A stretch of DNA of 24,116 nucleotides, taken from IMG/VR virus record IMGVR_UViG_3300042691_036419, positions 1-24,116 of that record, one strand, 5' to 3'. This stretch comes from a virus. Positions 1 through 15,525 of this stretch are shown here, piece after piece (position 1 is the stretch's first letter; every line of letters starts with the position of its first letter). Position numbers and translations under genes: made by a program. The notes beneath the pieces were generated by a model. That model was not told the DNA's origin, ran no database searches, and saw nothing but the letters and a program-made list of their open reading frames with translations.

Positions 1-3000
1 GTGGAGGGGTTGGAGCTGTCACCGGACTCGTTCTTACTCCAACCGAGGCAGGCGCTCAAGGTCAAGGTCAAGGCGAAGGTGGGGGTGTGGGCCTTCCTGC
101 GGTCCTTGCCGCGGCGGCTGCTGGTGGCCCTGCGGCGCTGCGTGGACGCGGAGCCGCGGTAAGGGCGGGTCTCCGGCAGGCAGCGACTAGCCCTGCTATC
201 AGTGCAGCAATAGGGGCTGGTGTAGGGGCGCTAACAGACGAAGAGGACCGCTTTGGTGGAGCGGCAGTTGGCGCACTGGCTGGTGCTGGGTTAGCCGGAG
301 CCACGGTCGGGACACGGCAATTGCTGCAGGCGCGTCGGGCGCTTCGGTCGGAAGGCTTGCCGACCGCCTTGGATAAGGCATACGCGATTGCCAAGGGTGG
401 CATTGACTTCACCGGGGCGGCTGGCAAGCAGATTGCCAAGCGGGCCAAACTTGGATTCCAAGATTCGCTGAAACGAATGGTTGACGGGATGTATCGGTTT
501 GCGGAGCTAGACGTATTGGCCCGCGATACTGGTATACGCCCAACGCAATCAGTGGAATCTGCCGTTAATACCGCGCTTGGGTCGCAGGTCACTGCAGCCC
601 GAGCCCTCGAGGAAGGGCGCGGGGTCGAAGCGGGCGGCATCATCGACCCTGACACGCAAGAGATTGTTGCCCCGTCCCTACAGCGGGTCTTTGAGGTACT
701 TGGTGGGAGTCCGCTGAAGAATGAGCAAGGCATGACGTATGCGGTGGCGCTGCGTCGTGTTGGACGATACGAACGGGCGGAGGCGCAGGCACGTCAGTGG
801 GACAAGCTCGCCGATGACGCGGCACGGGACGCTGAGGCCAACCTGCTCACGCCAGAGCAGGCAGCGGCGGAACAGCAAGCTATTGCGACGTATAGAGAGC
901 AAGTTGAAGCGGCTCGAAAGGCAGGACAGCCATTTCCTGCTACGATTCCGACGCCGACGACAGCACGGCCGGAGGTGGGAGTAGACGAGCCAGCGCTCGC
1001 TGAGCGGCTGCGTCTCATTGGGGAAGCGGAAGCAACGGCAGCGCTTGGACCGCGGCCTAATCCCAATCAAGTTTACGGCAATAAGCCGGACGCGCAGGCC
1101 AAGCTGGAGGCTGACCGCGCCTACATTGCAGGCGTCGGACAGAAGCCAGAGTTTGTGCAGTTTGCCGAAATGCTGCGGCAATACACCGATGGCTTAGCGA
1201 ACTATGCTGTCAAGACGGGTTTGTGGACGCCAGAAATGGCGAAAGCGTTCCGTGATTCTGACGCGCTTTACGTTCCGTTCAAGCGACTTATTGAGTCTAC
1301 TACGCAGAAGCCGCGTGGCCCCGTGCGTGGCGGGGTTACGCCGGGAACGGTGACGCCGGGTGTCCAGCAATTCCGCGGGTCTGACCTTATGCTTGGCAAC
1401 CCGGCCGAGGCGTTGGCCGAATATACGGTGGCCCTTATTCAACGCGCTGACGCCTACCGCGTAGGCGCAGCGACGATTGAAACAGTCGAGGCATTGGGCG
1501 AACGTGGAGCTGGCATCTTGACCAAGATTGACGGCACCGACCCAATAGCTAAGGCGGCTGCCGTTGACGAAGCGGAGAGAGCGTACCGCGCCATCGGGAT
1601 GGACGAGTCTGAAGCGGAAACAATGGCGGACGTGTTTGCCAGACTGTCCACCAAGAACGATGTGATTTGGCGCAATGGACCAGAGGGTCGCGAGTATTAT
1701 CTGGTCAATGACAAGACACTTGTCAACGCGCTCACGACGCTCAACGTGCAGGATGGCGATGCCGTCCGCGCTTTGTTGGCCATCTTTGGTCCAATGAAGC
1801 GATTGGCTACGGCCTTTTTGACTGGCAATAACCCGGCTTTCTTACTCGGTACCAACCTGCCGCGTGACCTGCAAATGGGGACACTGCAGACCACGGGGAT
1901 TCGCCCCGGCGACATCGCCGCGGGGATGGTGGAATCGATTAAGTCTATCTTCGGACGGTCCGCTGAGGTAGAAGCGCTAAGCCGTGCGGGCGCTGGCGTG
2001 GTGTCGCAGTACGGCGGCGGGGACATCTCAGCTGCTGGCGTGGCGCGGCGAATTGCTCCTGTCACTGCTGGTCAGCAAGCAATGGCGACGGCCGGGCGTT
2101 ACGTCGGCGCTCCGCTCCGTGAAATCGAACGGATTGGCCGTGCCTCAGAAATGCCAATGCGTATTGCGGCGTCTCGCGTGGCTCGCCGACAGGCGGCCGC
2201 GGCAGGCTTGTCCGAGGCTGACCAAATGGCCTTGGCTTCCCGTAAGTTTGCCGAAGCGACGGTCGATTTCCGACGGCGCAGTGGTTACGCGCTGGACCGA
2301 TTAGCGGAAGGGTCAGTGCCGTTCTACGGAGCGGCCAAGAAGGGCTTGGCGCAATTTATTAAGGTCTCCGGCCGGAATCCGAAGCGGGTCGGTGCGGCGC
2401 TCGGGCTGATTGGATTGGCGGTGGTGATGGAGGACATTAGCCTCGGCGAAGGGCAGGAGCGCGTCGAGGCGCTGGACCGTCCGGCGTATGAGCGGGCCAA
2501 GTACCTACGGATTGGCGACACCAAGATTGCCCTCCCGCAAGAACTAGCGGCCTTTGCAGCGGCCTATCGTGTTGGGCTGGCGCAATTGAGAGAGGACGAC
2601 CCATACGTCTACGAGCAGTTTAAGCAGGCCGTCATGAACCTGACGCCGCCGATTCTTGGCGACGTGATTCGCGGTAAGTTTGTGCCAATCCCAGTGGTGG
2701 GGCAGCTCGAGGAATTGGCTGCCAATCGGTCGGCCTTCACTGGGCGTCCGATTGTGTCTGAGGCGATGCAGCGCCGGATGCCGTCTGAGCGTCGGTATGA
2801 AACGACCGCTCCCACCTTCGATGTGCTGGCGGCCGCGGCCCGAAAGATTCCCGGATTGGAGCAAGCATCTCCCATACAAGCAGAGTTTTTGCTGCGTGGA
2901 TTGACTGGCGGGTTTACCCCAGCGGTGACCGCGGTCACCGACATTCCGGCGCAACTGCTGGCTGGTGAGGCGGCGCGTGAGCGAGTGCCACTACCGTTTA

Positions 3001-3470
3001 TGCGGCAACCGCTTAACCCTCTTGCGGCAGTGCGGATTCAGCCGACGCGAGCCAGTGAGAGCGAGCGTGAATACTATGCGTTGCGCGACAAGTACCAACA
3101 GGCACGAGGCACGGTAAATAACTTTACTACGCAATACGAGCGAGCGCAGGCGGCCAATGATACCGATGCGTTGAATCGGTTAAGCGCCCGCGAACAAGTG
3201 CTATTGCGTGACCCCGTGTATAGGCGGGCAAGGGCTGATGTTGATGCAGGGAAGGGGGCTCCCTCTGCTCTAACTGTCGATAGCGAATTGCAGAATATTC
3301 TCGATGTGCTGCAAGCTGACATAGACCGCACTAACGCGGACTTTGCCAACGGCCGCATTACATCTCGCCGAGCTAGGCAGCTGATTGACCATTACAACAA
3401 GGAGCGTCAGATGCGGATGCGTGAAGCCGCCAAGCTGATGCGCCAAAATGTTCCGAGTGGCCGCCAATGA
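1..3470 (+). CDS. Large virion/polyvalent protein with LPD38-like region (5' partial)
   Basis: The reading frame is open to the left edge (first full codon at base 3), so this is the C-terminal part, about 1155 residues, of a larger protein. Early on (about bases 90-330) is a Gly/Ala-rich, membrane-friendly segment with a glycine-zipper look, followed by long alpha-helical stretches. Around 1825-1875 the motif NPAFLLGTNLPRD, and around 2320-2440 a segment with FYGAAKKG and SGRNPKR followed by a hydrophobic helix, resemble the LPD38 domain of phage polyvalent/ejected proteins; this match is from memory. The C-terminus after about 3050 is charged and probably coiled-coil. Inference: an internal virion protein delivered with the DNA, because it sits just before the lysis genes in the late region. 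By eye this gene is less GC-rich than the genes to its right. The exact function is unknown. Confidence 0.72.
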   Translation, partial: GGVGAVTGLVLTPTEAGAQGQGQGEGGGVGLPAVLAAAAAGGPAALRGRGAAVRAGLRQAATSPAISAAIGAGVGALTDEEDRFGGAAVGALAGAGLAGATVGTRQLLQARRALRSEGLPTALDKAYAIAKGGIDFTGAAGKQIAKRAKLGFQDSLKRMVDGMYRFAELDVLARDTGIRPTQSVESAVNTALGSQVTAARALEEGRGVEAGGIIDPDTQEIVAPSLQRVFEVLGGSPLKNEQGMTYAVALRRVGRYERAEAQARQWDKLADDAARDAEANLLTPEQAAAEQQAIATYREQVEAARKAGQPFPATIPTPTTARPEVGVDEPALAERLRLIGEAEATAALGPRPNPNQVYGNKPDAQAKLEADRAYIAGVGQKPEFVQFAEMLRQYTDGLANYAVKTGLWTPEMAKAFRDSDALYVPFKRLIESTTQKPRGPVRGGVTPGTVTPGVQQFRGSDLMLGNPAEALAEYTVALIQRADAYRVGAATIETVEALGERGAGILTKIDGTDPIAKAAAVDEAERAYRAIGMDESEAETMADVFARLSTKNDVIWRNGPEGREYYLVNDKTLVNALTTLNVQDGDAVRALLAIFGPMKRLATAFLTGNNPAFLLGTNLPRDLQMGTLQTTGIRPGDIAAGMVESIKSIFGRSAEVEALSRAGAGVVSQYGGGDISAAGVARRIAPVTAGQQAMATAGRYVGAPLREIERIGRASEMPMRIAASRVARRQAAAAGLSEADQMALASRKFAEATVDFRRRSGYALDRLAEGSVPFYGAAKKGLAQFIKVSGRNPKRVGAALGLIGLAVVMEDISLGEGQERVEALDRPAYERAKYLRIGDTKIALPQELAAFAAAYRVGLAQLREDDPYVYEQFKQAVMNLTPPILGDVIRGKFVPIPVVGQLEELAANRSAFTGRPIVSEAMQRRMPSERRYETTAPTFDVLAAAARKIPGLEQASPIQAEFLLRGLTGGFTPAVTAVTDIPAQLLAGEAARERVPLPFMRQPLNPLAAVRIQPTRASESEREYYALRDKYQQARGTVNNFTTQYERAQAANDTDALNRLSAREQVLLRDPVYRRARADVDAGKGAPSALTVDSELQNILDVLQADIDRTNADFANGRITSRRARQLIDHYNKERQMRMREAAKLMRQNVPSGRQ

Positions 3471-5550: not shown

Positions 5551-6877
5551 CCAAACCCCGTGGTCGCCTGAAGAATACGTTCGCTTTACCGTCCTCACTG
5601 CCTCTGGTGTCTCCGCCGCGGAAACTGCGGCGCAGCTAAACGCCGAGTTCCACGACGGCGTCCCCATCCGGACGCAGTCGAGCATCGTCAATAAGCGGAC
5701 CCGGGCCAAGCTCAAGGTCGGGCCCAAGCCCATTACTCCGCTCCCCCCTGCGGGCCTGCCCATTGCGCGGGAGCAAGAGGTCGAGCGGTCCGAGAGCGAC
5801 GACGGCATCACCGCCCGCGCCGTGGGCACCCGCATCCGGACGGTGGACGACCTGCTGGCCCATATCGAGGCCGACCTGACGCGCTTCGAGGTGGCCGAGA
5901 GTCAGGCCACCAAGTACGAGACGGCGGCCAAGGACCCCAACACGGGGCAGGTGATAGTCACTGAGCTGCACCGCGTCTACGTCAAACTCCGGCCCAAGGC
6001 GGGGCCGTCTATCCTTGAGGCGGTCGAGTCGCTCATCGCGGGGGCCGTTAAACCGCGGCTGACGATTCGGCCCGTCGTGCCTAAACCACGGGTGAATACG
6101 TCGGTCCTGCAGGCGCTGGTTGTGGCTGACCCGCACGTTGGGAAGTATGCGTGGGGGCAGGAGACGGGCGACAAGGACTACGACATCGGCATCGCGACAA
6201 AGCTCATCCGGGAGGCGAGTACAGAGCTGCTCGAGGATGGGGCGCACCGCGGCGTCGGGCATCGGGCCATCCTGCTCCTCGGCGACTACTTCCACTACGA
6301 CACCCCGCACGGCCAGACTACCAAGGGCACCCCGCAGGACCGCGACGGGCGGGTGGATAAGATGCTCGAGGCCGGGTCCGAGGCGCTCTTCGACCTCATC
6401 GAGACCTCGGCGCAGATGGGGCCGACCGCGGTGGTGCTGGTCCCCGGAAACCACGACGCCGTGCTGACGGTCGCCCTGCGGCAGATGCTGGCCGCCTACT
6501 TCCGCGGCGACAGGCGGGTGAGCATCGAGGCCGGGAAGACCACCCGCAAGTACCTGACCCACGGCAGGTGCCTCATCGGCCTGACCCACGGGGACAAGGC
6601 CAAGAAGCGGCTCGGCGAGCTGATGGCCGCAGAGGTCCCGCATCTCTGGGGGCAGTCCACCTACCGCGAGATTCATACGGGTCATCTCCACGGAGAGGCC
6701 GAGGTCCAGACGGTGGCTGGGGTGGTCATCCGGACAGCCCCGGCCCTCTGCCCACCGGACGGCTGGCACTCCCTCGAGGGGTATGTTGCCAAGCCTCGCG
6801 GGATGCAGGCCTTCTACTACCACCCCGACGGCGCACTCCTCGGCATGACAGTTAGCAATCCCGACCGCGGACGTTAG
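5534..6877 (+). CDS. Metallophosphoesterase (calcineurin-like nuclease) with N-terminal Myb/SANT-like domain
   Basis: 447 residues, GTG start with a GAGGCGG purine stretch just upstream. Residues about 8-60 (TPWSPEEY ... SSIVNKRTR) look like a Myb/SANT-like DNA-binding helix bundle, followed by a Pro-rich linker. The C-terminal half carries the full calcineurin-type metal set: DPH at 199-201, GDYFHYD at 250-256, GNHD at 305-308, THGDK, and GHLHG at 383-387. These bind two divalent metals and hydrolyse phosphodiesters. Similar proteins occur in phages and are usually called DNA-repair-exonuclease-like (SbcD/Mre11 relatives), but the substrate is unproven. The combination suggests a DNA-targeted nuclease acting in replication or host DNA breakdown. 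The start overlaps the preceding gene by 17 bases. Confidence 0.88.
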   Translation: MPARHDQTPWSPEEYVRFTVLTASGVSAAETAAQLNAEFHDGVPIRTQSSIVNKRTRAKLKVGPKPITPLPPAGLPIAREQEVERSESDDGITARAVGTRIRTVDDLLAHIEADLTRFEVAESQATKYETAAKDPNTGQVIVTELHRVYVKLRPKAGPSILEAVESLIAGAVKPRLTIRPVVPKPRVNTSVLQALVVADPHVGKYAWGQETGDKDYDIGIATKLIREASTELLEDGAHRGVGHRAILLLGDYFHYDTPHGQTTKGTPQDRDGRVDKMLEAGSEALFDLIETSAQMGPTAVVLVPGNHDAVLTVALRQMLAAYFRGDRRVSIEAGKTTRKYLTHGRCLIGLTHGDKAKKRLGELMAAEVPHLWGQSTYREIHTGHLHGEAEVQTVAGVVIRTAPALCPPDGWHSLEGYVAKPRGMQAFYYHPDGALLGMTVSNPDRGR

Positions 6878-6880
6878 ATT
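6852..6880 (+). promoter_or_regulatory. Promoter for a leaderless transcript (6887 gene)
   Basis: TTAGCA (6852-6857), 17-bp spacer, TAGATT (6875-6880), then six bases (GGCGGT) and the ATG at 6887. The predicted transcription start therefore falls on the ATG itself. No Shine-Dalgarno lies before this ATG. The -35 overlaps the last codons of the metallophosphoesterase gene. Confidence 0.62.
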
Positions 6881-6886
6881 GGCGGT

Positions 6887-7108
6887 ATGCCCACCTGCCT
6901 CCCGGACCGCGCTGAAGCCTGCCCCGAGCGGCATACGGCCGTTCGGGACGGGCGATGCTGGTACAGCTGGGAGGGGAAGGGCTGGCTGATTATCCGAGGC
7001 GGGATACCGACAGGCTACACCCGATGCCCGTGGTGCGGGGGGAAGCTCCCGACGCTGGTCGATGCAGTTCTTCGGGCCATTGCGGAGCGCGAGGACGATG
7101 GCCGCTAG
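6887..7108 (+). CDS. Cys-rich zinc-ribbon-like small protein
   Basis: 73 residues. Four Cys residues lie at CLPDRAEAC near the N-terminus and CPWCGGKLP at about residues 46-54; the latter is a typical zinc-ribbon knuckle. A tryptophan-rich stretch (CWYSWEGKGWLIIRGG) lies between them, and a short charged helix ends the protein. Similar zinc-knuckle proteins occur in many phages without known function. The start is supported by the -10 element six bases upstream rather than by a ribosome binding site. The 3' end overlaps the next gene by 11 bases if that gene starts at 7098. Confidence 0.72.
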   Translation: MPTCLPDRAEACPERHTAVRDGRCWYSWEGKGWLIIRGGIPTGYTRCPWCGGKLPTLVDAVLRAIAEREDDGR

Positions 7109-7388
7109 ACGCCGGAAGTCCTCGGTCTTTACCAACCGCAAGGCCTCGGTCTCGGTCCACCGGAACGGGCTGTCCATCGAGATTGGCGACGTGCCTGCCG
7201 TGGATGCGGGGGTCGTGGCGAAGGAGCTCTTGGACATCGTCCGCCAGCTCTGGAGCGCAGGCTACGAGGAGCTGACGCTGGACCGTGGAGCCCTGCACGG
7301 CGGCGTGTTTGAGGTGGCCGAGGAGTACGAGGGCGAGGATTACGTCATCCCGCCAGAGGCCAAGCGGCGCATCGGCTTCCACGCCTAA
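7098..7388 (+). CDS. Hypothetical acidic phage protein
   Basis: 96 residues from ATG 7098; an upstream in-frame ATG at 7062 would add 12 residues but has no better ribosome binding site and would lengthen the overlap. The N-terminus is basic (AARRRKSSVFTNRK), the middle alternates strand and helix (SVHRNGLSIEIGDVP, then a helix with KELLDIVRQLW) and the C-terminus is acidic (EVAEEYEGEDYVIPPEAK). No family is recognised. It is the last rightward gene before the convergent hairpin region and shares a transcript with the 6887 gene. Confidence 0.68.
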   Translation: MAARRRKSSVFTNRKASVSVHRNGLSIEIGDVPAVDAGVVAKELLDIVRQLWSAGYEELTLDRGALHGGVFEVAEEYEGEDYVIPPEAKRRIGFHA

Positions 7389-8520: not shown

Positions 8521-9174
8521 ATGGCTACCAAGTTGACGCTGGAAAACGCAGGAGACCGCGCCGTGATGACGGTGACGGAGTGCAAGTCGGTGACGACCAA
8601 GTTCGGCACCAAGCTGGTGTTTACGGGGACCACGGACGAGGGCGAGCTCGTCGAGACCCCGCTCATTCCGGATACGACCGGACTCAAGCAGCTCGACCGC
8701 CTTGGCCTCACCGCGGACACTGCGGTCGGCGAGCGCCTCGAGTTCTCCCGTGCCGCCAACCCGAGCGGCAAGCCCTACTGGAACATCGACCCCGCCCGTT
8801 CGGGTGGTGCGGCCCCGTCGAAGCGGATGGCCCCGCCTAGTGCAACGGTTGCACCAGCGGCTACGCCAGTGACGGATAGGACACCGGACCAGCGCCGCGA
8901 TGCGGTGGTCTCGCAGTACCTCCTGCTCTGGCAGACGGTCGCCACACAGCTCTCGCAGGTGCAGTCGGTCAAGGTGGATGCCGCGGTGGTGCAGGCGGCA
9001 ACCGCCACGCTCTGGATTAGCCTCAAGGACCACGGCCTGCAGGTGACCCAGCCTGCGGCCAAGGCGGCTCCGGCTCCGGTGGTGCCGACCACGCCTGCCC
9101 CGAGCGGGAAGCGCATTCAGCCACCTATCTCCCTGCCACCCGAGGACCCGGCGGATGACGACCTCCCGTTCTGA
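8521..9174 (+). CDS. Single-stranded-DNA-binding-like protein
   Basis: 217 residues from the ATG at 8521, with AAGGAG six bases upstream. The N-terminal ~95 residues are beta-rich (KLTLENAGDRAVMTVTECK, KFGTKLVFTGTTDEG) and could form an OB fold. After a Pro/Ala-rich linker comes a helical segment (about 120-175), then another Pro/Ala-rich linker ending in DDDLPF. An acidic tail of the form DDDxPF is the hallmark of bacterial and phage SSBs, which use it to recruit replication and repair partners. The helical insert between OB-like domain and tail is not usual. The identification rests mainly on the tail plus the fold pattern. Confidence 0.68.
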   Translation: MATKLTLENAGDRAVMTVTECKSVTTKFGTKLVFTGTTDEGELVETPLIPDTTGLKQLDRLGLTADTAVGERLEFSRAANPSGKPYWNIDPARSGGAAPSKRMAPPSATVAPAATPVTDRTPDQRRDAVVSQYLLLWQTVATQLSQVQSVKVDAAVVQAATATLWISLKDHGLQVTQPAAKAAPAPVVPTTPAPSGKRIQPPISLPPEDPADDDLPF

Positions 9175-9337: not shown

Positions 9338-9783
9338 TACGCTGCGAGCTCCAGCGCTGTCGACAGGTGCTGGTCGAGCGAGTGGACCAGCTGGGGCGGG
9401 TGACGTATGCCTGCCCCGGCTGTACGCGCCGGAAGAAGGGCCAGTGCCAGCTCTGTCCCAAGGCGGTGGTCGGCACGGTCGGCGTGGCCTATTACTGCGC
9501 CGAGTGCCGTCGGGTCAAGCAGCGCGAGTCGGTGATGCGCTGGCAGCGTAACCATCTCGACAAGGTCGCGAAGAACCAGCGCCGTCGGCGGTGGGCCGCG
9601 CAGGGGAAGCGGATGCCTGCGGAGCCGATGACGCCAAGCCAAGCGGGCAAGCTGGGCGGCAAGAAGGGGGCCGCGGCGCGGGTCAAGGCGCTGGGGCCTA
9701 AGCGAGTCAAAGAGATAGCGCTCAAGGCGGTCCGCATCCGGTGGGCCAAGCACTGGGAGCGCCAACGACAGGGGGATGTATGA
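9334..9783 (+). CDS. Zinc-finger protein with basic KGG-type C-terminal repeat
   Basis: 149 residues from the GTG at 9334, chosen because GGAGG lies about seven bases upstream and it overlaps the previous stop (GTGA). The N-terminal half has at least three Cys pairs (CELQRC, CPGCTRRKKGQCQLC, YYCAEC), giving one or two zinc sites, followed by a basic helix (WQRNHLDKVAKNQRRRRW) like that in some HNH-associated phage proteins, although no HNH His/Asn triad is clear. The C-terminal TPSQAGKLGGKKGAAARV ... RIRWAKHW is the short Gly-Lys/Arg-Trp motif found in many small DNA-binding proteins. Probably DNA binding; a nuclease role is not supported. Confidence 0.7.
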   Translation: MIRCELQRCRQVLVERVDQLGRVTYACPGCTRRKKGQCQLCPKAVVGTVGVAYYCAECRRVKQRESVMRWQRNHLDKVAKNQRRRRWAAQGKRMPAEPMTPSQAGKLGGKKGAAARVKALGPKRVKEIALKAVRIRWAKHWERQRQGDV

Positions 9784-10283
9784 CACTTGTAATACGCGAG
9801 CCGCTCGCGCAGACGCGGCTCACCTTGAACCCCGGCGAGATTGCCGTGGCGACCACCATCGCGGGTATCCGGCAGGGCGTTAACCGCGAGCGGGGCATCG
9901 TCAACCAGAAGGCGGGCTCGCAGGACCCAATTACTACGGACATCATCGGGATGCTGGGCGAGCTGGCCTTCGCCAAGTGGGCGAACGTCTGCCCGGACCT
10001 GAGTACGCACCTACGTTCAGGCACCCCGGACGCCATCTTCCGGGGCTACACGGTGGATGTCAAGTCCACCCGAAACCCAATAGGGCCGCTGTACGTCGAT
10101 GCGCGGCCCGATAAAGCGCCGGACCTCTATGTGCTCGTCCACGTCGAGTATGCGACCTGCACCTTGCTGGGCTGGGTCTGGCGGTCGGAGCTGAATGAGT
10201 ACCTGACGCCGGAGGAAAACCGTATCCCGGCGAACCAGCTGACCGAGATGCGCTGGCTGGCGGAGATTGAGCCGAAGGCTTGA
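9780..10283 (+). CDS. PD-(D/E)XK nuclease-like phage protein
   Basis: 167 residues from the ATG at 9780, which overlaps the previous stop (ATGA). The core fits a restriction-endonuclease-like fold: Glu61 in GELAFAKW, Asp84 in TPDAIFRG, and Asp93-x-Lys95 in YTVDVKSTR, followed by alternating strands (LYVDARPDKAPDLYVLVHV) and a small hydrophobic strand with GWVW. This is the usual pattern of small phage PD-(D/E)XK proteins that cut DNA or recombination intermediates; the exact substrate is unknown. It is the last protein gene before the non-coding stretch, and the next promoter starts within its stop region. Confidence 0.72.
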   Translation: MTLVIREPLAQTRLTLNPGEIAVATTIAGIRQGVNRERGIVNQKAGSQDPITTDIIGMLGELAFAKWANVCPDLSTHLRSGTPDAIFRGYTVDVKSTRNPIGPLYVDARPDKAPDLYVLVHVEYATCTLLGWVWRSELNEYLTPEENRIPANQLTEMRWLAEIEPKA

Positions 10284-10308
10284 CGCCGTGACGCCAAAGC
10301 GTTAGCTT
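10280..10308 (+). promoter_or_regulatory. Promoter of the non-coding 10313-10720 stretch
   Basis: TTGACG (10280-10285), 17-bp spacer, TAGCTT (10303-10308). Bases 10300-10314 match the -10/+1 part of the 6852 promoter at 14 of 15 positions. Here no start codon follows at +1: the next bases are GCGTAG, the start of a hairpin. Confidence 0.6.
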
Positions 10309-10312
10309 GGCG

Positions 10313-10720
10313 GTGCGTAGTTCACGGCTATGCACGAGTAGTCACAAGAGAACGGCCCCGATAAGTACCCCCTCGGACGCGGAACTAAGAACCGCAGTCC
10401 GCCGTGAAGGGAGGGAACGTCGGGGCCTCTTGTTTGTCTGCGGGCCTACTCTCGGTCTCCCGCAGGTGACCTGAACCGACAGGCCACACTCAATCCTGAC
10501 CGTGCTGGCGACACCCGGTAACACAAATCCACGCTCTGCCTGCCTGCAACGTGGTCGGTCGTCTCGGGTCGTTCGCTGGGAGCAACACGGGGGCACAGCG
10601 GCCCCGCAGGTCACCCGTCGAGGGACTTCGCTCGAGCACCCCCGAGCAAGCGCAGACGGCCCCACCGCTGGCCTTCGGTCCCGCGTAGCACCGCAACCCC
10701 CGCCGACGACCGGGAATGGC
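10313..10720 (+). ncRNA. Candidate structured non-coding RNA
   Basis: The 467 bases between two genes (10284-10750) hold no convincing coding frame but many complementary arms: GTGCGTAG/CTATGCAC (10313-10320 with 10328-10335, one G-T pair); GGCCCCGAT/GTCGGGGCC (10354-10362 with 10419-10427), enclosing CGGAC-GCGG/CCGC-A-GTCCG (10374-10382 with 10392-10401) and a CCCT/AGGG pairing; CTGCGGG/CCCGCAG (10438-10444 with 10459-10465); and a long-range GGTGACCTG/CAGGTCACC (10465-10473 with 10607-10615). A promoter lies directly upstream, with expected start near 10314. No match to tRNA, tmRNA, RNase P or group I intron was recognised. The 3' end is uncertain; a TCTTGTTTG stretch after 10427 could be an earlier end. 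The RNA could also be an unusually long 5' leader of the 10751 gene. Confidence 0.5.
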
Positions 10721-10750
10721 CGGGGTGTATCCTTCCACCAGACACGCCCT

Positions 10751-11233
10751 ATGCCACTCGCCATTGCCACTGAGACCGGACAATTCCACGAGCACCGCGG
10801 CCGCCAGTTGCTCGAGGCCTTCGCTCGCCATACGCACAGCGAGCTCGTCGTCTCCGACCCGCAGGCCACCGCGGCCCTCGATGCGGTCTTTCACCGGGAC
10901 GGGGTGCTGGTCGCGGTCGCCGAAGCCAAGACCCGCGTCAAGTACGACTACGCCGCCATCGCTGAGTACGGGACCTACCTCATCACCCACGATAAGCTCG
11001 AGACACTCCAGCAGGTGAGCGCCGCCCTTGCCGTGCCGTCCTTCCTCGTGACCGAGCTGAGCGATGGGGTCCGGCTCTACTGGCAACTGACCGATGCCAG
11101 CGGCCGCGAGACCCTGCGCTACCGGGTGAACGCCACCGAGACGCTGGCCACATCGGTCGGGACTGAGCGGGTGGTCCGGGTCAATGCCTTCCTGCCACTC
11201 GAGGCCGCCACCATCTGGGGCACGGGCGAATAA
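10751..11233 (+). CDS. PD-(D/E)XK nuclease-like protein
   Basis: 160 residues from the ATG at 10751. The same frame is open upstream to 10502, but that extension is Arg/Pro/Thr-rich, has no structure and lies over the RNA stems, so it is taken as non-coding. The core has Asp44 in AALDAVFHRDG and Glu58-Ala-Lys60 in AVAEAKTR, matching the metal-binding pattern of the PD-(D/E)XK fold, followed by helix/strand elements (YGTYLITHDKLETLQQV, SFLVTELSDGVRLYW). No Shine-Dalgarno is visible; a TATCCT at 10728-10733 with a poor -35 could give a very short leader. The substrate is unknown. It differs in sequence from the other two nuclease-like proteins here. Confidence 0.68.
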   Translation: MPLAIATETGQFHEHRGRQLLEAFARHTHSELVVSDPQATAALDAVFHRDGVLVAVAEAKTRVKYDYAAIAEYGTYLITHDKLETLQQVSAALAVPSFLVTELSDGVRLYWQLTDASGRETLRYRVNATETLATSVGTERVVRVNAFLPLEAATIWGTGE

Positions 11234-11239
11234 TTTCTC

Positions 11240-11268
11240 TTGCGCGACCAGCGTGTCGGCGCTATACT
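11240..11268 (+). promoter_or_regulatory. Promoter of the small HTH gene
   Basis: TTGCGC (11240-11245), 17-bp spacer, TATACT (11263-11268), the best -10 in the window. The expected start is near 11275, giving a leader of about 43 bases to the ATG at 11318. Confidence 0.75.
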
Positions 11269-13468: not shown

Positions 13469-13614
13469 CGGATGACCCACGCTTTCGGGCAATCTGGACG
13501 CAGTTGAAGAAGCTGTGGGTGACGCAGGACACTGGGACGCCAGAAGACGTTGAGCGCGAGCATACCATCCTCACCACCCTTGTCGCCGAGTGGCAAAAAC
13601 ACAATGAGCCATAA
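13465..13614 (+). CDS. Hypothetical 49-residue protein
   Basis: GTG at 13465 overlapping the previous stop, TAA at 13612-13614. The product is helical (DPRFRAIWTQLKKLWV, then PEDVEREHTILTTLVAEWQ) with amphipathic character. No family is recognised. The support is the continuous overlap chain (GTGA before; an 11-base overlap with the ATG at 13604 after) and a sensible residue pattern. The ribosome binding site is weak, so translation probably depends on coupling. Confidence 0.5.
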   Translation: MTDDPRFRAIWTQLKKLWVTQDTGTPEDVEREHTILTTLVAEWQKHNEP

Positions 13615-14158
13615 CATCGACCTGCCCCACCACCGCTACGTCTGGGTCATCGAGAACGCGGTGTATCGCAAGGGGTCGCAGGATAAGACCATCCCCGCGG
13701 TCTGGTGGGGGATGAGTGCCACGCCCGGGCGGATGTTCGGGTGCCACGTCCTCCTCGAGTCCGGCGCGATGGTGGTGGACCTTCCGCTCCACGCGCTGCG
13801 CCACGAGCCTGACGCGACCCACTACGTCCTGCCGGAGCTGTCGCAACGCTGGGATGCCTATGGCTGGCACCTCGAGGCGCACCAGCCGGAGTATCTCTCG
13901 GGCCTCGACTGCCGCGTCTTGACCGAAGACCACAAGCACATCGCAGGCACCGGGAATCTCTGGTTCTATGTGGACCACGTCGGGGACGGCTACTCGCTGG
14001 AGCCCGGACAGCACAAGCACCATTGGGTGGTCGGGATGCACGAGGGCCACTTCGACTGCGTCCCGCAGGATATGGTGCTGGTCGAGGAGAAGAGCTTCAC
14101 CGCGGTGGACGGCATCCCGCCCGTCAAGCGGCAAACCAAAGTCTGGAGCTGTGAATGA
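13604..14158 (+). CDS. Hypothetical His/Trp-rich phage protein
   Basis: 184 residues from the ATG at 13604. Rich in His and aromatic residues (LPHHRYVWVIENAVY, HVGDGYSLEPGQHKHHWVVG, MHEGHFDCVPQD), with several predicted strands; the many His residues could bind a metal. No known domain is recognised. It overlaps the glycosyltransferase gene by four bases (ATGA), so the two are coupled and may work together. No signal peptide or membrane segment is visible. The regular structure and codon use like its neighbours make it a secure gene of unknown role. Confidence 0.72.
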   Translation: MSHNIDLPHHRYVWVIENAVYRKGSQDKTIPAVWWGMSATPGRMFGCHVLLESGAMVVDLPLHALRHEPDATHYVLPELSQRWDAYGWHLEAHQPEYLSGLDCRVLTEDHKHIAGTGNLWFYVDHVGDGYSLEPGQHKHHWVVGMHEGHFDCVPQDMVLVEEKSFTAVDGIPPVKRQTKVWSCE

Positions 14159-15454: not shown

Positions 15455-15525
15455 TCCCCTCTCGTCTAACGGCAGGACCCCGCACTTTGGATGCGGTAGT
15501 CGAGGTTCGAGTCCTCGGGGGGGAA
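15455..15525 (+). tRNA. tRNA-Gln(TTG)
   Basis: 71 bases fold into a full cloverleaf: acceptor TCCCCTC/GGGGGGA with one U-G pair and discriminator A; D stem GTCT/GGAC with loop AACGGCA; anticodon stem CCGCA/TGCGG with loop CTTTGGA, giving anticodon TTG (reads CAA, and CAG by wobble); short variable loop; T stem CGAGG/CCTCG with loop TTCGAGT. CCA is not encoded, so the host must add it. It lies five bases after the glycosyltransferase stop, and its 3' end meets the stop of the leftward gene ending at 15527. Confidence 0.93.

Follow-up and report, generated by a model that had tools for sequence, protein, structure and literature searches.

To our knowledge, few RNA classes reach the complexity of the one described here, and those that do are catalysts, riboswitches or unexplained ornate phage RNAs. 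GOLLD and ROOL, two representatives of the last group, form homo-oligomeric RNA nanocages. Both are ornate RNAs of phages and prophages, and no protein partner of ROOL has been identified (PMC12286853). The put RNA of phage HK022 is about 70 nt long, consists of two stem-loops, contains a triple helix and acts alone (PMC9378689). The RNA analyzed here resembles GOLLD and ROOL in being phage-borne, large, elaborate, pseudoknotted and of a function that is not known. However, it does not match their Rfam models, it is about 290–415 nt long as compared to >800 nt for GOLLD, it does not lie in a tRNA array whereas GOLLD and ROOL are found near tRNA islands, and it is absent from the bacterial genomes searched whereas GOLLD and ROOL occur in both phages and prophages. 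Membership in either class was rejected on the Rfam gathering threshold and on the occurrence in tRNA islands and prophages. Like HK022 put, the RNA is located near an early promoter and has no fixed downstream gene; unlike put, it is at least four times longer and pseudoknotted, it can be antiparallel to its neighbours and it often ends just before the next promoter.

The RNA was identified in a window of 24,116 bases, the whole stretch of DNA analyzed, which belongs to the IMG/VR virus record IMGVR_UViG_3300042691_036419 and has the gene content of a tailed phage (DNA repair exonuclease, PolB-like exonuclease, Holliday junction resolvase, terminase and portal). It is flanked by two variable cargo genes on the same (+) strand, encoding a DUF5843 protein (9780..10283) and, outside the RNA, a PDDEXK_14-type nuclease (10751..11233). 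The initial annotation had found no plausible gene between positions 10284 and 10750 and had regarded the in-frame extension of the nuclease gene over this stretch as non-coding. Both statements hold, since all relatives that carry the stretch conserve it as RNA, insertions and deletions do not come in threes, the changes track pairing, and homologues exist without the nuclease frame. Indeed, the frame-breaking indels and pairing-driven changes read in the alignment rule against a protein-coding gene. Elsewhere, the window holds a large polyvalent protein gene with an LPD38 domain (positions 3–3470, 1155 codons, open at the contig start), a match to the phage "ferredoxin" family phrog_3704, an unusual cargo gene (13550–14158), and a tRNA-Gln (UUG) gene at 15455–15525, 4.7 kb from the RNA. 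A pattern search of viral contigs found no protein relatives of P0001.

Fold of the conserved core

Comparison of the relatives shows that the predicted fold of the core is multiply pseudoknotted and conserved. This core (Domain II, 10438..10730, + strand, as all features below; ~290 nt) comprises 13 helices, four of which are crossing, i.e., form pseudoknots. The statistics were obtained with alignment A3, containing 26 distinct core sequences and a structure of 72 pairs. Standard pairs occupy 92.9% of the pair cells, against 75.6 ± 0.6% with shuffled partners and 33–46% with slid structures, the latter comparison favouring the real version because the structure was derived by hand from the same sequences. 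Compensatory double changes occur in 53 of the 72 pairs (32.7 expected from shuffles), and the covariation score is 0.457 as compared to 0.148 in the control. Two approaches are free of the hand-derivation bias, namely the test on unseen sequences described below and an unbiased ranking of column pairs (G-test with average-product correction), whose top ranks are mostly core helices. Furthermore, 83 G-U cells versus 31 A-C cells are counted when the alignment is read on the + strand, which fits transcription of this strand. The core also contains clusters of invariant unpaired residues. The folding energy of 10284–10750 is unremarkable (z = −1.26) and the minimum free energy uninformative; energy alone would not have revealed the RNA, for which the evidence is covariation, and several of its most informative helices are pseudoknots, which are invisible to energy-based folding.

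Starting from the 5′ end of the core, hairpin P1 (10438–10444/10459–10465) is paired in 98.4% of the cells with double changes at 5 of its 7 pairs, and the adjacent hairpin P2 (10466–10473/10480–10487) shows double changes at all 8. The first pseudoknot, PK1 (10454–10457/10498–10501; GGUC/GACC), is 100% paired, as is hairpin P4 (10529–10533/10550–10554, with an inner helix at 10537–10539/10546–10548). The core covariation table further includes P3a (10505–10511/10573–10579), P3b (10513–10517/10565–10569), hairpin P5 (10588–10592/10602–10606) and P6 (10615–10619/10655–10659), which encloses hairpin P7 (10630–10634/10643–10647). The latter is only 61% paired in the table owing to its misalignment in some rows. 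The P5 loop (10596–10601) pairs with 10665–10670 to give PK2, found in both the covariation table and the unbiased ranking, while the P7 loop (10638–10642) pairs with the 3′ end (10722–10726) to give PK3, whose ACCCC/GGGGU is replaced in relatives by GCCGG/CCGGC or UGACUA/UAGUCA. Finally, the long-range helix LR1 (10556–10562/10706–10712; CGGUCGU/ACGACCG) is 100% paired, has double changes at 5 of 7 pairs, is likewise found in the unbiased ranking and is probably extended by the pair 10563–10705.

One of the stems listed in the initial annotation did not withstand this comparison. A perfect 9-bp long-range pairing of 10465–10473 with 10607–10615 turned out to be spurious: it is present in 2 of the 26 sequences, namely the window and L006, its near twin, matches of this kind occur at chance level in shuffled sequence, and the true partner of 10466–10473 is the local strand 10480–10487. 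On the other hand, the nested stems between 10354 and 10427 covary, and both the core and the 5′ domain that contains these stems covary beyond their controls.

Three columns of the core vary together. Positions 10446, 10457 and 10498 are always C/C/G (19 sequences) or U/U/A (9 sequences), i.e., in 28 out of 28, and they occupy ranks 7–9 of the unbiased column-pair scan. Since PK1 ends with the pair 10457–10498, a base triple is the simplest explanation of the third column, and this three-way covariation suggests a putative Y.R-Y triple at 10446/10457/10498. The same alternatives recur independently in a distant clade, where L089 and L095 have U/U/A and L098 and L103 have C/C/G.

The unseen sequences were collected with R1, a covariance model that covers the first half of the core and whose training set consisted of near relatives alone. 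R1 found L103, L098, L095 and L089 with E values of 8e-13 to 2e-10 and, when run on whole records, a further clade consisting of G012, G019 and G020 (L117–L119; E values of 8e-21 to 1e-17). Neither distant clade was part of the training set. By reading, the distant clades have GCUC/GAGC instead of GGUC/GACC in PK1 and UAGCACG/CGUGCUA in PK2, while compensated versions are seen of LR1 in L117 (CGGACAUC/GAUGUCCG) and of PK3 in L118 (GCCAA/UUGGC) and L119 (GCCAG/CUGGC). On this reading, the pseudoknots of the distant clades appear to be maintained through compensation.

The optional 5′ domain and the candidate promoter

Many near-clade RNAs include a second structured region 5′ of the core, Domain I (10313..10435, + strand; ~125 nt). 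In 16 sequences, 93.6% of its pair cells are standard (78.8 ± 1.0% when shuffled) and 24 of the 37 pairs show double changes. The domain begins with hairpin P0 (10313–10320/10328–10335), whose loop UUCACGG (10321–10327) is predicted to form a kissing pseudoknot with CCGUGAA (10402–10408), located in a bulge of the long hairpin that follows. This kissing helix covaries, with double changes at 6/8, and its variants are GUCAGAAG/CUUCUGAC in L031, CUCGAAAG/CUUUCGAG in L021, CUAAGAAG/CUUCUUAG in L013 and UUCGUGG/CCACGAA in L038. The long hairpin itself (10344–10349/10428–10433 and 10354–10361/10420–10427) is GC-rich, terminator-like and supported by covariation; it encloses a loop-E-like internal loop, AAGUA/(G)GAACG, and the nested stems mentioned above are paired in 98.4% of the cells with double changes at 6 of 8 pairs. 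The loop-E-like motif and the kissing loop presumably resemble elements of some riboswitch aptamers; a riboswitch-type attenuator differs in that no Rfam class was matched by Domain I.

The terminator-like closing hairpin of Domain I carries UUGUUUGU and ends with UUGUUUG or UUGUUUU. Domain I thus shares with intrinsic terminators and attenuators a GC-rich hairpin, an ACAA/UUGU closing stem and a short U-rich tail; unlike in an intrinsic terminator, the U-tract of the window type is interrupted (UUGUUUG). Clearer terminators are found at the same place in other near-clade phages. The position of the domain is also attenuator-like, as it lies directly 5′ of genes in L013, L014, L037 and L038. 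These records show that Domain I is separable from the core: a gene for a DUF5843 relative is inserted between the two in L014 and L038, and an N6/N4-type methylase gene takes this place, downstream of Domain I, in L013 and likewise in L037. The distant clades are without Domain I, and their order is upstream terminator, candidate promoter, core and next promoter.

The promoter-like sequence TTGACG-17-TAGCTT noted previously is present at 10280..10308 (+ strand), where it overlaps the DUF5843 stop codon; it is weak (8/12) and falls below the standard scan cut-off. In L014 and L038, Domain I is preceded at the corresponding position by TTGACG-16-TAGATT, and by reading L002–L004 have TTGCGG-16/17-TAAGTT/TATCTT. 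The 3′ end of the core has no clear terminator. Given this and the weakness of the promoter, the core may sit in a longer operon transcript in most phages.

Distribution and genomic context

Homologues of the RNA were found in 46 IMG/VR phage records, including the distant clades. A search with the nuclease yielded three viral contigs, all with homologous DNA just 5′ of the nuclease gene and with differing other neighbours. A search pattern made of two conserved strings, CAATCCTRACNGTG...CAAATCC, gave 35 matches in viral contigs, 31 of them genuine by context; with a second, looser pattern, all 36 matched viral contigs were genuine. In 257 Gb of bacterial and archaeal genomes, the first pattern had 31 matches, close to what our own estimate predicts for chance alone, and none was accompanied by the neighbouring motifs. 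R1 had no match in 687 bacterial genomes, a weak result as this set holds no known positive. No relative of the RNA was detected in a cultured-phage collection, in which matches H1 and H3–H9 were due to chance (H1 lies inside a CDS on the opposite strand), or in a plasmid collection queried with L019. A host or prophage origin was rejected in view of the chance-level pattern matches in prokaryotic genomes and of the R1 result. In the collections searched, the occurrence of recognizable homologues is shown to be restricted to viruses.

Rfam 15 returned nothing at gathering score for 10284–10750 and nothing meaningful at E 10; the sub-threshold matches (sX5, SNORA57, Guanidine-III and similar) were weak and inconsistent. 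ARAGORN called no tRNA or tmRNA in the RNA, and a tRNA-like or tmRNA-like identity was discarded. In L036 and L072, a T-arm-like string, GUCGGUUCGAUUCCGGC, is found ~50–100 nt 5′ of the core, in what appears to be a degenerate tRNA or a tRNA-like element; ARAGORN predicts no tRNA there and the motif is not general. A tRNA-Gln (UUG) gene lies just downstream of the core only in L012 and L018. Overall, the proposal of a new or divergent phage ncRNA receives strong support from the covariation, the Rfam 15 result and the phage-only occurrence.

When 27 whole records were searched with the covariance model, the RNA was detected once in 22 and was undetected in 5. Among the latter, G011 and G021 encode terminases related to that of the window. 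Relatives of this terminase were found in only 6 of 36 records, many of which are fragments in which terminases may be missing; the RNA thus seems common to phages with different terminases. Its presence as a single copy per genome and its independence from particular neighbours are shown by the recognizable homologues. Indeed, the genes downstream of the core include those for a PDDEXK nuclease, an HNH protein, a C5 cytosine methylase and ArdC, as well as an HTH-like/exonuclease operon. In L002, and at the matching place in L037, a small HNH-like gene (L002:3651–3992) with a zinc-ribbon-like C-terminal part and no Pfam match above cut-off lies between the RNA and the next gene. In L072, an ArdC-like anti-restriction protein (ArdcN + MPTase-PolyVal; 6478–7356, − strand) is encoded directly downstream of the RNA, and the locus, with ArdC here and methylases and nucleases in other phages, resembles an anti-restriction island.

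This anatomy speaks against the suggestion that the RNA is an extreme leader of the nuclease at 10751, as the same core precedes other genes, the nuclease is upstream of the RNA in L012 and the arrangement is antiparallel in L015. An IRES or leader of whichever gene comes next was likewise rejected, since the genes differ and the distance to the start varies from ~28 to >110 nt. The RNA of L015 occupies the + strand, while the exonuclease (9885–11261) and the operon on the other side of the RNA are on the − strand, the 10/12 promoter of this operon at 9033 being divergent from the RNA. This layout argues against a role as leader or 3′-UTR of a neighbour and for an independent RNA. In most records the RNA is co-directional with the next operon, as expected of a cis element, the reversed orientation being confined to the L015/L023 lineage; in the distant clades, a terminator precedes it and the promoter of the next operon follows. 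The anatomy supports the view that the RNA is its own transcription unit, apparently placed beside changing genes.

The window is 95–95.5% identical to L002 over 10307–10463, in the 5′ part of the RNA, and 96% identical to L003 over 10415–10760, in the 3′ part, whereas the neighbouring genes are only about 87% identical. This mosaic identity suggests that recombination may have occurred inside the RNA.

Possible modes of action

Most likely, judging from these comparisons, we are dealing with an independently transcribed phage RNA whose activity would be exerted in trans. Action in trans is suggested by the differing neighbours, by the reversed orientation in L015 and by the location of the RNA between a terminator and the next promoter in the distant clades. 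Taken as a whole, the picture that we consider probable is that of a new class of phage ncRNA with its own transcription unit, a trans-acting core and a Domain I serving in cis as attenuator or terminator. Transcription would start from the candidate promoter near 10280, and RNA polymerase would pass through Domain I before reaching the core and any cargo gene. The core, folded into a compact shape, would then be trans-acting and probably bind a protein complex of the host or the phage early in infection. The restriction and DNA-modification cargo nearby makes a counter-defence role thinkable; a more specific version, in which an RNA-only trans effector of an anti-restriction island blocks a host defence or machine while the Domain I attenuator times its synthesis, is in our opinion unlikely.

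The co-directional layout of most records, together with the location of the RNA where the early region of the distant clades begins and its indifference to which gene follows, would also suit a cis leader of the early operon that modifies RNA polymerase leaving the promoter, so that downstream terminators and pauses are ignored as with HK022 put, which acts alone and has a triple helix (PMC9378689). A put-type cis position is compatible with most records, but not with L015, where the RNA is directed toward the 3′ end of a convergent gene, with the early operon in the opposite direction. Moreover, a new promoter often directly follows the core, the terminator-like Domain I is located before the core and not after it, and the core does not have the size and shape of put (~70 nt, two stem-loops). 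We regard such a leader as rather unlikely. Another candidate role of the RNA is in phage DNA replication or packaging, as an origin primer or a pRNA-like molecule. The single copy per genome, the proximity to genes for recombination and replication (ERF, PolB-like exonuclease, resolvase) and the conservation in phages with terminases that show no detectable relation to that of the window speak for it. However, a packaging RNA should track one terminase type, whereas the terminases differ, and the RNA is much larger than pRNA, is not beside the terminase and is inverted relative to its neighbours in L015, which makes this explanation very unlikely.

The compact core with several pseudoknots and clusters of invariant unpaired residues calls to mind a ribozyme, either self-cleaving or self-processing, or the remnant of a mobile self-splicing RNA with cargo such as the HNH gene adjoining the RNA in L002 and L037; the exchange of modules and cargo genes around the RNA, seen in the mosaics of the window with L002 and L003, points in the same direction. 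The crossing of LR1 and PK3 recalls the P3/P7 pseudoknot of group I introns, and the AAUCCUGA...AAAUCC string is, as we assume, reminiscent of tRNA-Leu introns. Yet Intron_gpI, like every other ribozyme or intron model of Rfam, has no match even at E 10, and the helices are arranged differently from those of group I introns (there is no P8), so that the intron idea raised by this string was abandoned. The sequence of PK3 is free, unlike the conserved guanosine-binding P7 of these introns, no gene is split or interrupted, the neighbours are intact, and the HNH gene lies outside the fold. A catalytic or formerly mobile RNA is therefore quite unlikely.

The reading that we favour remains that of a separately transcribed RNA with a trans-acting core, and the newness claimed here is that of the RNA class and not of a function. 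Its complexity lies in four crossing helices and a probable base triple, which are retained in phages whose terminases are unrelated. At the same time, its short length makes the RNA accessible to cryo-EM, probing and in vitro assays, and with it the purpose of elaborate phage RNAs becomes a more tractable question.
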